Below the pieces are notes generated by a model. It had not been told where the DNA came from. It saw only the letters and a program-made list of their open reading frames with translations, and searched no databases. Of a stretch of 64,000 bases of DNA, positions 2,603 to 6,170 are shown piece by piece (positions within the stretch are counted from its first letter, which is position 1; each line of letters begins with the position of its first letter). This DNA is from Phaeobacter sp. 11ANDIMAR09 (GTDB taxonomy: Bacteria > Pseudomonadota > Alphaproteobacteria > Rhodobacterales > Rhodobacteraceae): positions 62,001 through 126,000 of the forward strand of contig NZ_LIKT01000012.1 in assembly GCF_001294455.1 (NCBI RefSeq). Reading direction: 5' to 3'. The translations under genes were made by a program, and so were the position numbers.

Positions 2603-3085
2603 TCAGCGGTTCACCAGGCGGTAGCCTTGGTTCTGCAGGCAGCGTGGTTTGTAGGCCGTGCGGTTCTTTTGGCCGTTCCAGAACGTCACCTTGCAGTTTT
2701 GTGGCAGCGACCGGACATGCCCGTAATTGCGTTTCAGGCAACCGCGCGCCACCAGGCTTCGGCCGTTCCGGAAGTTGGGGAAATACTTCACGCATTGCGC
2801 AGGCAGGTCATAGCGACCAAAGCGCGGCGGCAACGGACGCGGCTGGGGGCCGGGATTGGGGCGATGCGGCCGGGTCACCACCTCCCGCGAGCGGCGACGA
2901 TCCCGGGTGTTGTGATCATGCAGTGCCGCCCCGAGGATGCCCAGGACTGCCAACCCTGCCACCACCTTGCCAAAGTCCTCTCCGGCCTGGGCAGGGGCCG
3001 AGGAGGCGCCAGTGATGGCCATGGCAGCGGCCAGAATGATGGCGATAAATTTGCGGTGCTGTTTTGGTTTTGCGCTCTGGGTCAT
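2603..3085 (-). CDS. Small exported protein of unknown function
   Basis: I do not recognise a named family. 160 residues from MTQSAKPKQHRK (ATG at 3085, good GAGG site upstream). A basic N-terminus and hydrophobic stretch ending in SSAPAQA form a classical signal peptide. A second short hydrophobic stretch (KVVAGLAVLGILGAALH) follows, then an Arg/Pro-rich linker (about residues 65-95) and a C-terminal region with four cysteines (QCVKYF, RGCLKR, NCKVTF, PRCLQN) that could form two disulfides in the periplasm. Monocistronic with its own terminator. Looks like a conserved Rhodobacteraceae periplasmic protein. Confidence 0.75.
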   Translation of the reverse strand: MTQSAKPKQHRKFIAIILAAAMAITGASSAPAQAGEDFGKVVAGLAVLGILGAALHDHNTRDRRRSREVVTRPHRPNPGPQPRPLPPRFGRYDLPAQCVKYFPNFRNGRSLVARGCLKRNYGHVRSLPQNCKVTFWNGQKNRTAYKPRCLQNQGYRLVNR

Positions 3086-3300
3086 CGAATCGTTTCCTCT
3101 TGCTTTATTGTCTGGTGGCGCCGCCGGGAGGGGCAGCAAACCCGCCGCCCTTTGGCTGTAGTGGCGGGTTCAAATCTGTGACCTCACACTCGACCCAAGC
3201 AGTTCAGACAGGCAATAACAGCGTTATGATATCGAATAACCAAGAGGCCAAAGCGCTGTTGTTATTGAATTTCACCCCGCTTTTGGCGCAGGGTGAAACG

Positions 3301-3594
3301 ATGAGACACATCCTTGCCATACCGCTGATATGCGCCTCCCTGCTGGCCGCGACGGCGCCAGCACAGGCCGCCGATTGCTACGCCGATTACAAGGCCAAGC
3401 AGAACAACCCGCTGAAACTACATTACGGGGTAATCCAGATTCGGGGCGCCTGCAGTAAGTCCGCCGCACAGGGGGAAGTGCAGGACCGCCTGGCAGCCTC
3501 TGGCTGGACCCTGCTCAATGTGATGTCGGTCTTTGGCCCCGAAGGCCTGCAACAAAGGAAGGCCAATGCCGGACCCTACTATCTCCGTTTCTGA
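3301..3594 (+). CDS. Small exported protein of unknown function
   Basis: 97 residues, starting MRHILAIPLICASLL with a signal peptide ending TAPAQA; the mature part is about 75 residues with two cysteines (DCYADY and RGACSK), consistent with one disulfide, and ends GPYYLRF. ATG at 3301 follows a GGGTGAAACG stretch that can serve as ribosome site. Its last 29 bases overlap the start of the next gene, which suggests the two are translated from one message. No family recognised. Confidence 0.65.
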   Translation: MRHILAIPLICASLLAATAPAQAADCYADYKAKQNNPLKLHYGVIQIRGACSKSAAQGEVQDRLAASGWTLLNVMSVFGPEGLQQRKANAGPYYLRF

Positions 3595-4267
3595 GGCCCG
3601 CTCTGCAGGCAGTCGCATCATCGCAATTGGCATCGCCCTGATTGCTGCCCTACTGGCCATCGCTGGAACAGTGCTTTTGCTGGCGCTGCCCGATGCCAAT
3701 GCCTTTAATGCGCGCGTGGAACAGCTGTTTGTTGAAAACGACCTGACCACCCAGGCCGAAATCAAACTGCTGGAGATCCTGGCCCAATCCGGCACCGCCT
3801 TTGCCGATACCCTGGCCAGCTACCGGGTGGTGATCTTTGTGCTGTTGGTCTTTGCCACTGCAATGATGATTGTTGCCTTGGTGGTTCTGGCCATGCTCCT
3901 GCTGCTCAATCGCCGCATGGCGCAGATCGAACGCGCCGGTATTCAGGTCACTGAATTGCTGATCAGCCGCGAAGAACACACTGTCTATCTCAACAACATG
4001 GGTTTTAAGCTGACACCCGCAGCGATGGAGACGCTCTCTGCCCTGGCTGAGGCCCGCATGGATGACGATGTACTCTCTGGGGCCGAAATCGAAGCGGTGA
4101 TTTCCGGCAAACACAGCAGCGATTGCGAAGAGGCCGCCGGCGCCACCCGCATCAAACGGCTGCGCGATACCCTGGGCAATCAGATGGTCAGCGAACTGTT
4201 GGTCAAAAATATCGCCAAGCGGGGCTATGTGCTGGCAATTAGCAAGGATGTCATCCGTATGGTATGA
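3566..4267 (+). CDS. Two-helix inner-membrane protein with C-terminal OmpR-like winged helix
   Basis: 233 residues, ATG at 3566 behind AGGAAGG. Seen: hydrophobic helix at about residues 18-43, periplasmic loop of about 45 residues (FNARVEQLFVENDLTTQAE...), second helix at about 88-118, then a cytoplasmic region. The last 90 residues follow the pattern of OmpR/PhoB C-terminal domains: a short strand pair (HTVYLNNMGFKLTP), helices (AAMETLSALAEA, SGAEIEAVIS), a recognition-helix-like TRIKRLRDTLG, and the terminal wing hairpin AKRGYVLAI. I infer a membrane-tethered DNA-binding protein in reverse orientation to ToxR/CadC (membrane part first). It is followed by the DUF427-cyclase gene. No named family is recognised. 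Confidence 0.65.
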   Translation: MPDPTISVSEARSAGSRIIAIGIALIAALLAIAGTVLLLALPDANAFNARVEQLFVENDLTTQAEIKLLEILAQSGTAFADTLASYRVVIFVLLVFATAMMIVALVVLAMLLLLNRRMAQIERAGIQVTELLISREEHTVYLNNMGFKLTPAAMETLSALAEARMDDDVLSGAEIEAVISGKHSSDCEEAAGATRIKRLRDTLGNQMVSELLVKNIAKRGYVLAISKDVIRMV

Positions 4268-4496
4268 TCGGTGGCTTTGGCAGTCCTGGCCACGGCTCAA
4301 CGCCAGGGAGTTGAAAGCGCAGTCTGCGCAAGAAACAACATAGCCTGTGCAAAAGTGATCCTTCCAGCCACTGGATATTTGGCGCGACACCCCCACATAT
4401 AGGCCTGCCTCCCCAAGGGAGGCATCCTGGGCTGCGCTTGCGCACCCTGTGATCCCAACAGGACCCTCGGAGACGGGGGACAAGAGGATATCCCCG

Positions 4497-6170
4497 ATGA
4501 ACGCGCATGTTCCCTCCCCCCCCAACCCAGCCGCCCCCCAGGGGCGTGGACCTCAAAACCGTGGCTACGGCATCCTGGTCGAACCTCTGCGGGGCGAGGT
4601 GCTGGTGCGGCGGGGGGGCTGTCTCTTGGCCAAAAGCAGCCGAGCGCGGGTGATGTATGAAACCCGATTGCAGCCCACCATCTATATTCCACGCGATGAT
4701 TTGGTGGTGGATCTGTCCAACAGGGTCGGATTGCAAACCTTTTGCCCCTTCAAGGGCACCGCCCAATATCACGATCTCAAGCTCGCCGAGGGCCGCATCG
4801 ACAATGCGGTCTGGATCTATGAAAACACCCTGCCAGAGGCGAGCCAGATCGAGGGGCATGTGGGGTTTGTGGCAGACCCCTGCACCGAGATCGACCTGGG
4901 CAGCAATCAGATTGCGCCGCCGGAATATGGCAATATCTCTGGTCCGCTGATTGACTGGCTGCTGCGCGAGGCCGCCTTTCTGCCCACCCCCGAAGACTTC
5001 ACCAGAGCCTTTTCACAAAAACTGCTGGAACAGGGGGTCTGTCTATCGCGCTTGTCGGTGCTCGCCTGGTCCCTGCATCCGCAGATCGCGGGCAAGAATT
5101 TCATCTGGCAAAAATCCACTGATGAGGTGACCACCTATGCCCCCAGCTATGAAATCTATGAACACCCTGCCTATAATGCCAGTCCGCTGCGCCATGTCTC
5201 CAAGGGGCTAGGCGGTGTGCGCCACCGCATCGATAGTGAAGACAGCGCCGATGCCTTCCCGATCCTCAGCGATCTGCGCGCCGCCGGATCAACCGATTAT
5301 GTCGCCATGCCCCTGCCCTTTTCCGATGGCCGGATCAATGTGCTCACCGTGGCCTCGGACCACCCGGACGGGTTTTCCACCGCAAACCTGGGGCTGATCT
5401 TTGAATGCTCGGCTGTGGTGGCCCGCTATTATGAGGTCTTCATGCAGCGCGAAAACGCCCAGTCGCTGCTGGAAACCTATGTGGGCAAACGCACCGGCGA
5501 ACGGGTATTGGGGGGCAAGATTCGTCGCGGCGAAGGCGATGAGATCGACGCCGCCATCATGTTCTGCGACCTGCGTGGCTCGACCCTGCTGGAAGAGCAG
5601 CTGGGGCGGCGCGACTATATCAAGCTTCTGAACGAGTTTTTCGACACCGCCTCGACCATCGTACAGGACAATGGCGGTGAGGTGTTGAAGTTCATCGGAG
5701 ATGCGGTTTTGGCGGTGTTCCCCGTTGGGGATGCCGCTGGAGCAGATGCCAATCAGGCCCGTGCACAGGCGTTGATATCTGCCCGTAGCATTGTTCCGGC
5801 CCTCGCGCAGGTTGCCTCCGAACATGATCTGCCACAGCTGGAATGCGCCAGTGGTATTGCCTATGGCACCGTAACCTATGGCAATGTCGGCTCACGCGAA
5901 CGGCTGGATTTCACCGTCATTGGCCAAGCCGCCAATATTGCCGCCCGCCTCGGCGACTATGGCAAAACCCTGGGCCATCAGATCGTGGTCAGCCAAAACT
6001 CCCTTCCCAGCAGCTATCAGAACACCACGCCACTGGGCGCGCTCGCCCTGCATAACGTCAGCCAACCGGTAGAGGCCTTTGCTGTCAGCCCCTTGACTGT
6101 TGCCCCTGAAAAGAAGTCGCAGGAGAGCCCAAAGGGACCGCCGCCCGCACCGGAAGCTGTTTCAAAGTAA
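4497..6170 (+). CDS. DUF427 / class III adenylate cyclase fusion protein
   Basis: 557 residues from ATG 4497 (AGAGGA upstream). Domain 1 (about residues 25-135) matches DUF427: SSRARVMYET, IYIPRDDL, TFCPFKGTAQY, DNAVWIYENTLPEA. The middle (about 150-330) is a sensor-like region of the type found ahead of soluble alphaproteobacterial cyclases (SPLRHVSKGL, TDYVAMPLPF). The C-terminal catalytic domain (about 350-520) has both metal aspartates (FCDLRGSTLL, KFIGDAVLAVF), a lysine in EVLKFIGD and an aspartate in LDFTVIGQ that favour ATP over GTP, and the NIAARL Asn/Arg pair. Product is therefore probably cAMP. No membrane segments. The 230 bp spacer upstream holds a hairpin (4407-4423). Confidence 0.9.
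   Translation: MNAHVPSPPNPAAPQGRGPQNRGYGILVEPLRGEVLVRRGGCLLAKSSRARVMYETRLQPTIYIPRDDLVVDLSNRVGLQTFCPFKGTAQYHDLKLAEGRIDNAVWIYENTLPEASQIEGHVGFVADPCTEIDLGSNQIAPPEYGNISGPLIDWLLREAAFLPTPEDFTRAFSQKLLEQGVCLSRLSVLAWSLHPQIAGKNFIWQKSTDEVTTYAPSYEIYEHPAYNASPLRHVSKGLGGVRHRIDSEDSADAFPILSDLRAAGSTDYVAMPLPFSDGRINVLTVASDHPDGFSTANLGLIFECSAVVARYYEVFMQRENAQSLLETYVGKRTGERVLGGKIRRGEGDEIDAAIMFCDLRGSTLLEEQLGRRDYIKLLNEFFDTASTIVQDNGGEVLKFIGDAVLAVFPVGDAAGADANQARAQALISARSIVPALAQVASEHDLPQLECASGIAYGTVTYGNVGSRERLDFTVIGQAANIAARLGDYGKTLGHQIVVSQNSLPSSYQNTTPLGALALHNVSQPVEAFAVSPLTVAPEKKSQESPKGPPPAPEAVSK

Follow-up and report, generated by a model that had tools for sequence, protein, structure and literature searches.

Among membrane-bound transcriptional regulators, VtrA/VtrC and ToxR/ToxS each combine a membrane-anchored CadC/OmpR-type winged helix with a periplasmic partner whose gene is adjacent, often overlapping and frame-shifted (PMC9214523, PMC10624426). 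In regulators of the VtrA/VtrC co-component superfamily, the helix-turn-helix (HTH) is N-terminal and is followed by a single membrane helix and a periplasmic domain at the C terminus; the gene of the partner lies downstream and encodes a lipocalin-like (or half-barrel) domain (PMC9214523). Regulator and partner of this superfamily form an obligate periplasmic heterodimer. Here, we describe a related arrangement of reversed topology in a 64,000-nucleotide (nt) stretch of the genome of Phaeobacter sp. 11ANDIMAR09 (Rhodobacteraceae; contig NZ_LIKT01000012.1, positions 62,001 to 126,000), hereafter the window. The gene at 3566-4267 encodes a membrane-anchored winged-helix protein, the regulator, and the frame at 3301-3594, which was overlooked in the initial annotation of the window, encodes a small, predicted exported protein. 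As in VtrA/VtrC, the candidate partner gene is adjacent and overlapping: its frame stops 29 nt inside the regulator gene, an overlap found in 112 of 114 distinct loci (128 of 130 before duplicates were removed), with the partner located upstream and its export judged by inspection. In contrast to VtrA/VtrC, the protein described here carries its winged helix at the C-terminal end, after two membrane helices, and its periplasmic part amounts to a loop of ~45 residues; the partner gene precedes that of the regulator, and the b-b-a-b-a fold predicted for the partner does not look like a barrel. Since an N-terminal HTH with one membrane helix is absent and the partner lies upstream, the pair is not a member of the VtrA/VtrC superfamily. 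The one-component regulator CadC shares the winged-helix fold (its structure 5ju7 is the best Foldseek match), whereas the reverse domain order, the lack of a large periplasmic sensor domain, and the overlapping partner gene set the present protein apart from it. Response regulators of the OmpR/PhoB type likewise carry a C-terminal winged helix, and RitR, whose entry title reads "redox sensor family," is among the matched chains; unlike in OmpR, PhoB, and RitR, two membrane helices replace the receiver domain, and the cysteine precedes the recognition helix.

On balance, we favor the view that the small protein and the regulator form a two-gene transmembrane signaling pair, a mirror image of ToxR/ToxS that acts at its own promoter and is possibly redox-responsive. 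If this is true, co-component signaling is confined neither to the known topology and gene order nor to enteric pathogens but has a reversed form in marine alphaproteobacteria, one whose partner and promoter are defined and whose single cysteine can be tested. The regulator is near-core in its family (157 of 198 genomes) yet uncharacterized: both genes are annotated as "hypothetical protein" in the two annotated plasmid-collection records that contain them, and among the open-licence papers that our searches listed we found none on this regulator, on DUF427-cyclase fusions such as the one encoded downstream, or on the promoter palindrome described below in Rhodobacteraceae.

Co-occurrence of the regulator and the small protein

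The strongest evidence of a functional link between the two genes is their co-occurrence, together with the retention of both after separation. In a survey of 198 genomes of the family, one per genus, each of the 157 genomes with the winged-helix gene yielded a single match, and a profile of the small protein detected it in 156 genomes, all within those 157 (lists compared by eye). The 157th (G064), which gave no profile match, carries a divergent exported two-cysteine frame in the place of the small gene, behind the same promoter array. Outside the family, neither the winged-helix protein nor the small protein was found in any of 284 genomes. At the level of individual loci, tblastn located the small-protein gene at 110 of 110. 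Furthermore, the two genes lie apart and are both retained in G103, G184, G040, and G168, the only four separated cases seen, with distances of ~0.9 to 4 kb or a location on different contigs, and with an inversion in one of them. The small protein would thus be the real partner of the regulator. In a separate survey across the order, the winged-helix protein was absent from 29 of 254 genomes.

Domains and conserved cysteines of the two proteins

The initial annotation had read the regulator, from the sequence alone, as a protein with two membrane helices at its N terminus and an OmpR-like winged helix at its C terminus, the reverse of the ToxR/CadC order, and this observation is confirmed. 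Hydropathy reveals hydrophobic stretches at residues ~18-41 and ~87-113, and the charges at the membrane ends would, by the positive-inside rule, place both termini in the cytoplasm. For the C-terminal part, the profile search against Trans_reg_C (PF00486) that had been proposed gave a split answer: residues 148-223 matched at E=5.8e-5, and the score of 23.5 bits fell just below the Pfam gathering score of 26.2. The same profile was matched at E<=0.01 by 23 of 27 diverse homologues (best 3.2e-6); these 27, selected with an 80% identity threshold, also served as AlphaFold2 input. Searches of the PDB returned no significant match, either with a profile of the protein (best ArlR, E=0.31) or with its single sequence (TtgV, aligned along the membrane part, E=0.059). 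Overall, the AlphaFold2 model is weak, with a mean predicted local distance difference test (pLDDT) score of 66 and values below 50 for residues 207-223. When residues 128-228 of this model were compared to known structures by Foldseek, CadC (5ju7) ranked first at E=1.6e-3, with no match at E<=0.001, and nearly all listed matches were OmpR-type winged helices. VIA-align superimposed the same residues on CovR (Z 9.8, root-mean-square deviation [rmsd] 3.2, 92 aligned residues), CadC (Z 9.5, rmsd 2.9, 95 aligned residues), and ToxR (Z 7.5). At the level of the predicted structure, the C-terminal domain is confirmed as an OmpR/CadC-type winged helix.

Two features of this domain stand out in the 118 distinct winged-helix proteins. 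The recognition helix, GATR[IV]KRLRDxLGN, is present in 117 of them, and a cysteine just before it (C187 in the window protein) in all 118; this residue is the sole cysteine of the protein in 111. The small protein has a signal peptide-like N terminus by inspection, and both of its cysteines are invariant in all 44 aligned rows (44 of 57 that were picked). Two mature cysteines are found in 111 of 113 distinct small proteins and three in the other two, and 109 of the 113 end in L[RK][FY]. The protein matched nothing in Pfam at E<=0.1 or in NCBIfam at E<=1. A DUF4177-like fold, considered as a candidate, was supported by no search.

The conserved cysteines of the regulator and its partner suggest thiol-based sensing. 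It is tempting to speculate that, throughout the family, the two-cysteine periplasmic protein and the regulator, with its single cysteine at the DNA-reading helix, relay the redox state of the envelope to one dedicated promoter beside the cell-cycle methylase gene ccrM, where the regulator would set the level of its own partner. Such a mirror-image ToxR/ToxS pair would be an undescribed kind of co-component signaling; in this specific form the idea is tentative, and we consider it rather unlikely.

A palindrome array at the promoter and its candidate regulator

An alignment of the DNA 5' of the small gene shows several copies of a 13-bp palindrome, GWTATY-N-RATAWC. Of 114 distinct upstream regions, 102 contain one or more exact copies, and 108 have their two best copies spaced by 32 or 33 bp, counts that refer to the loci from which the motif was derived, such that only its absence elsewhere is independent. 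A partial third copy, GACAGGCAATAWC (element 1), is present in 101 of the 114; it sits 21 bp before element 2 in 70, and a shorter match places it at the corresponding distance in 29 more. In 945,325 bases from 80 named loci (the best 80 of 543, with close relatives over-represented), excluding this promoter, we found no exact palindrome and six sites at <=1 mismatch. In the 4.7-Mb genome of the strain itself, this promoter holds the sole exact copy, although a reversed control pattern also has one. The five one-mismatch sites outside the promoter offered nothing convincing, as judged by reading frames only. A search for the exact site pair across 60 relatives, of which 36 belong to the family, gave matches in five genomes, each time directly before the small gene; the pair in the window itself carries one mismatch.

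The genomes in which the two genes are separated indicate which gene the array accompanies. In G184, both genes have sites, and before the winged-helix gene elements 1 and 2 are again 21 bp from each other, as is usual (by eye); G103, G040 (with one mismatch), and G168 have sites at the small gene only. Since separated cases keep sites chiefly at the small gene, the array follows this gene most faithfully; and since three separated winged-helix copies have no site within 350 nt upstream at <=2 mismatches, autoregulation of the winged-helix gene itself is not obligatory.

A dedicated regulator acting on this promoter would be the simplest reading, for which the co-encoded winged-helix protein is a natural candidate. 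In the signaling pair that we propose, the regulator would be anchored by its two N-terminal helices with the winged helix at its C-terminal end, and its periplasmic partner would be encoded upstream. The winged helix may bind the palindrome array and thereby control expression of both genes, chiefly that of the small protein, which in turn could act on the short periplasmic loop of the regulator. The thiol/disulfide state, read through invariant Cys187 and the two cysteines of the partner, is a plausible signal. The DUF427-cyclase would be a separate enzyme producing cyclic AMP (cAMP), which became a neighbor in one part of the family.

A number of observations weigh against this proposal. 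Regarding the pair itself, joint absence from 41 genomes says less than it might, because the genes overlap and one deletion removes both; of the 20 listed absentees in the order-wide survey, 12 come from a single genus (g24), as if the gene had been lost once in its ancestor. A shorter small protein, with both cysteines kept, is encoded in 7 of 20 re-read genome stretches (19 genomes, G040 twice, chosen for odd spacing or weak matches rather than randomly), where its frame stops 9-22 nt short of the winged-helix match or runs 2 nt into it; the 29-nt overlap is therefore neither universal nor essential. For the model of the small protein, Foldseek retrieved no PDB match (best E 0.55) and VIA-align reached at best Z 6.3, within the range given by unrelated models, although a family missing from these lists is not thereby excluded. 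Regarding the array, the exact site pair is absent from 55 of the 60 relatives (24 of the 60 being outside the family), G010 has no site at <=1 mismatch in its 5-kb stretch, and the separated winged-helix genes of G103, G040, and G168 have none within 350 nt upstream at <=2 mismatches. In the genome of the strain, one mismatch yields 8 sites, 3 of them at this promoter, versus 12 for the reversed control; given this lack of excess, no wider regulon is visible, and it would be unusual for a near-core regulator to have a single target. The sites of the array are palindromic, whereas direct repeats are the most common targets of OmpR-type winged helices.

The array could, in fact, be bound by a factor other than the winged-helix protein. 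Under this alternative, a different regulator, perhaps a repressor that responds to metal or redox state, occupies the array and controls the pair, while the winged helix acts elsewhere on degenerate sites that escape detection. The palindromic form of the sites speaks for it, as do the mostly site-free separated winged-helix genes and the missing site excess elsewhere in the genome; the array core, GTTAT..ATAAC, is also reminiscent of the Zur box. A general regulator should, however, have more genomic sites, and no other exact one was found; moreover, G078, which lacks the pair, has no site at <=1 mismatch in its 8-kb stretch. We consider this alternative a contender, albeit an unlikely one. 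A further alternative is that elements 1 and 2 are mainly the -35 and -10 elements of a conserved promoter and that the palindrome is partly coincidental. Indeed, a promoter-like match (TTCAGA-16-TATGAT, 3203-3230) overlaps both elements, which would place element 3 in the leader. Yet conservation is strong in either half of the palindrome, which moreover recurs as element 3 at a distance of 32-33 bp, unlike the usual -35/-10 spacing; this explanation is improbable.

The DUF427-cyclase and the surrounding genes

Downstream of the regulator, on the same strand, the product of 4497-6170 joins DUF427 to a class III cyclase with ATP-type residues, as the initial annotation had noted. The Pfam matches are to DUF427/NTP_transf_9 (E=6.7e-24, residues 37-126, 84 bits against a cut-off of 22.1) and to Guanylate_cyc (E=6.7e-11, residues 352-501). 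Alignment to CyaB (3r5g) shows that both metal-binding Asp residues, the Lys and Asp presumed to read adenine, and the Asn/Arg pair are all present. Given these residues, the protein is expected to be an active adenylate cyclase that uses ATP. Its catalytic domain resembles those of the class III adenylate cyclases CyaB, CyaC, and bPAC, from which it differs by the N-terminal DUF427 and a middle region (residues 130-350) without a Pfam match. This middle region is common to many cyclases that match only past DUF427, including one in the same genome (G000:C5:80881-82077).

The same annotation had suggested that regulator and cyclase could form one signaling unit, a link that comparative genomics largely refutes. 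The full-length DUF427-cyclase occurs in 13 of the 198 family genomes, versus 157 for the regulator, and adjoins the winged-helix gene in 10 of these 13; in G139 and G100, it lies on another contig than the winged-helix gene, and in G078 (83% complete), it stands beside ccrM/rnhB without winged-helix gene or small protein. The pairing, whose conservation in related genomes had been put forward as a check, is not conserved outside one part of the family. Among the 80 named loci, the cyclase is downstream in 56, is not in 23, and cannot be judged in 1 that ends too early. On a CcrM tree of 74 of these loci, this trait changes 7 times, compared to 19.9 times for shuffled labels, so adjacency is tied to clades and was lost or gained several times. 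Across loci, 19 to 782 nt lie between the genes (with one value of -145 from a doubtful start call). In the window, this gap holds no terminator-like site, and a promoter-like site (4239-4268) lies between the start points of the two genes. Elsewhere in the class, 12 of 279 genomes outside the family have a full-length DUF427-cyclase (query residues <=30 to >=500), two of them (G352 and G360) with stop codons in the matched frame, and none has the winged-helix gene; hence, the fused cyclase neither needs nor follows the regulator. A single unit linking a membrane signal to cAMP, for which the shared strand, the adjacency in 56 of the 80 named loci and in 10 of the 13 cyclase-bearing family genomes, and the terminator-free gap would speak, is very improbable in view of the disparate distribution of the genes, their variable spacing, the separate promoter-like site, and the cyclases without a regulator. 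The pairing looks like an inherited, clade-limited neighborhood, in which a looser, clade-specific functional link may exist.

Positions, strands, and supporting evidence of the features, numbered from the first nucleotide of the window
Feature	Position	Strand	Basis
Divergent gene, predicted exported Cys-containing protein	2603..3085	-	106/110 loci; start set where homologues begin aligning
Element 1, GACAGGCAATAAC, right half fits palindrome	3207..3219	+	in 101/114 distinct upstream regions
Element 2, palindrome GATATCGAATAAC (GWTATY-N-RATAWC)	3228..3240		only exact match in 4.7-Mb genome
Element 3, GTTATTGAATTTC, one mismatch, 33 bp after element 2	3261..3273		spacing conserved
Small exported protein, 97 residues, invariant C26 and C51	3301..3594	+	signal peptide by inspection; alignment, profile
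Overlap of small-protein and winged-helix genes, 29 nt, different frames	3566..3594	+	112/114 distinct loci
Membrane-anchored winged-helix protein, 233 residues	3566..4267	+	hydropathy, Pfam, predicted structure
Membrane part: helix 1 (~18-41), predicted periplasmic loop (42-86), helix 2 (87-113)	3617..3904	+	hydropathy and alignment
C-terminal OmpR/CadC-type winged helix (predicted structure), residues 128-228	3947..4249	+	structural alignment
Cys187 codon, immediately N-terminal to recognition helix	4124..4126	+	118/118 distinct proteins
DUF427-class III cyclase, accessory neighbor outside the conserved pair	4497..6170	+	Pfam, CyaB alignment, family survey

Besides the small protein, the initial annotation had passed over the palindrome array (3207-3273) and the ccrM/rnhB neighborhood. 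The latter occupies 645-2795 on the reverse strand, beside the regulator/small-protein pair, and comprises ccrM (N6_N4_Mtase and RAMA domains) and rnhB (RNase HII). Among 110 loci, ccrM lies within the stretch in 77 and rnhB in 100, the remainder being mostly short stretches. The intergenic region that contains the palindrome array also borders the divergent gene at 2603-3085, possibly another target of the array. In five loci (L019, L049, L062, L064, and L072), a different, more remotely related class III cyclase (27-31% identity) is encoded beyond ccrM. In Parasedimentitalea marina (L205), a ccrM-like methylase, rnhB, the pair, and the DUF427-cyclase are all located on the 110-kb plasmid pW43D, with genes for a protoglobin and for another class III cyclase next to the methylase.

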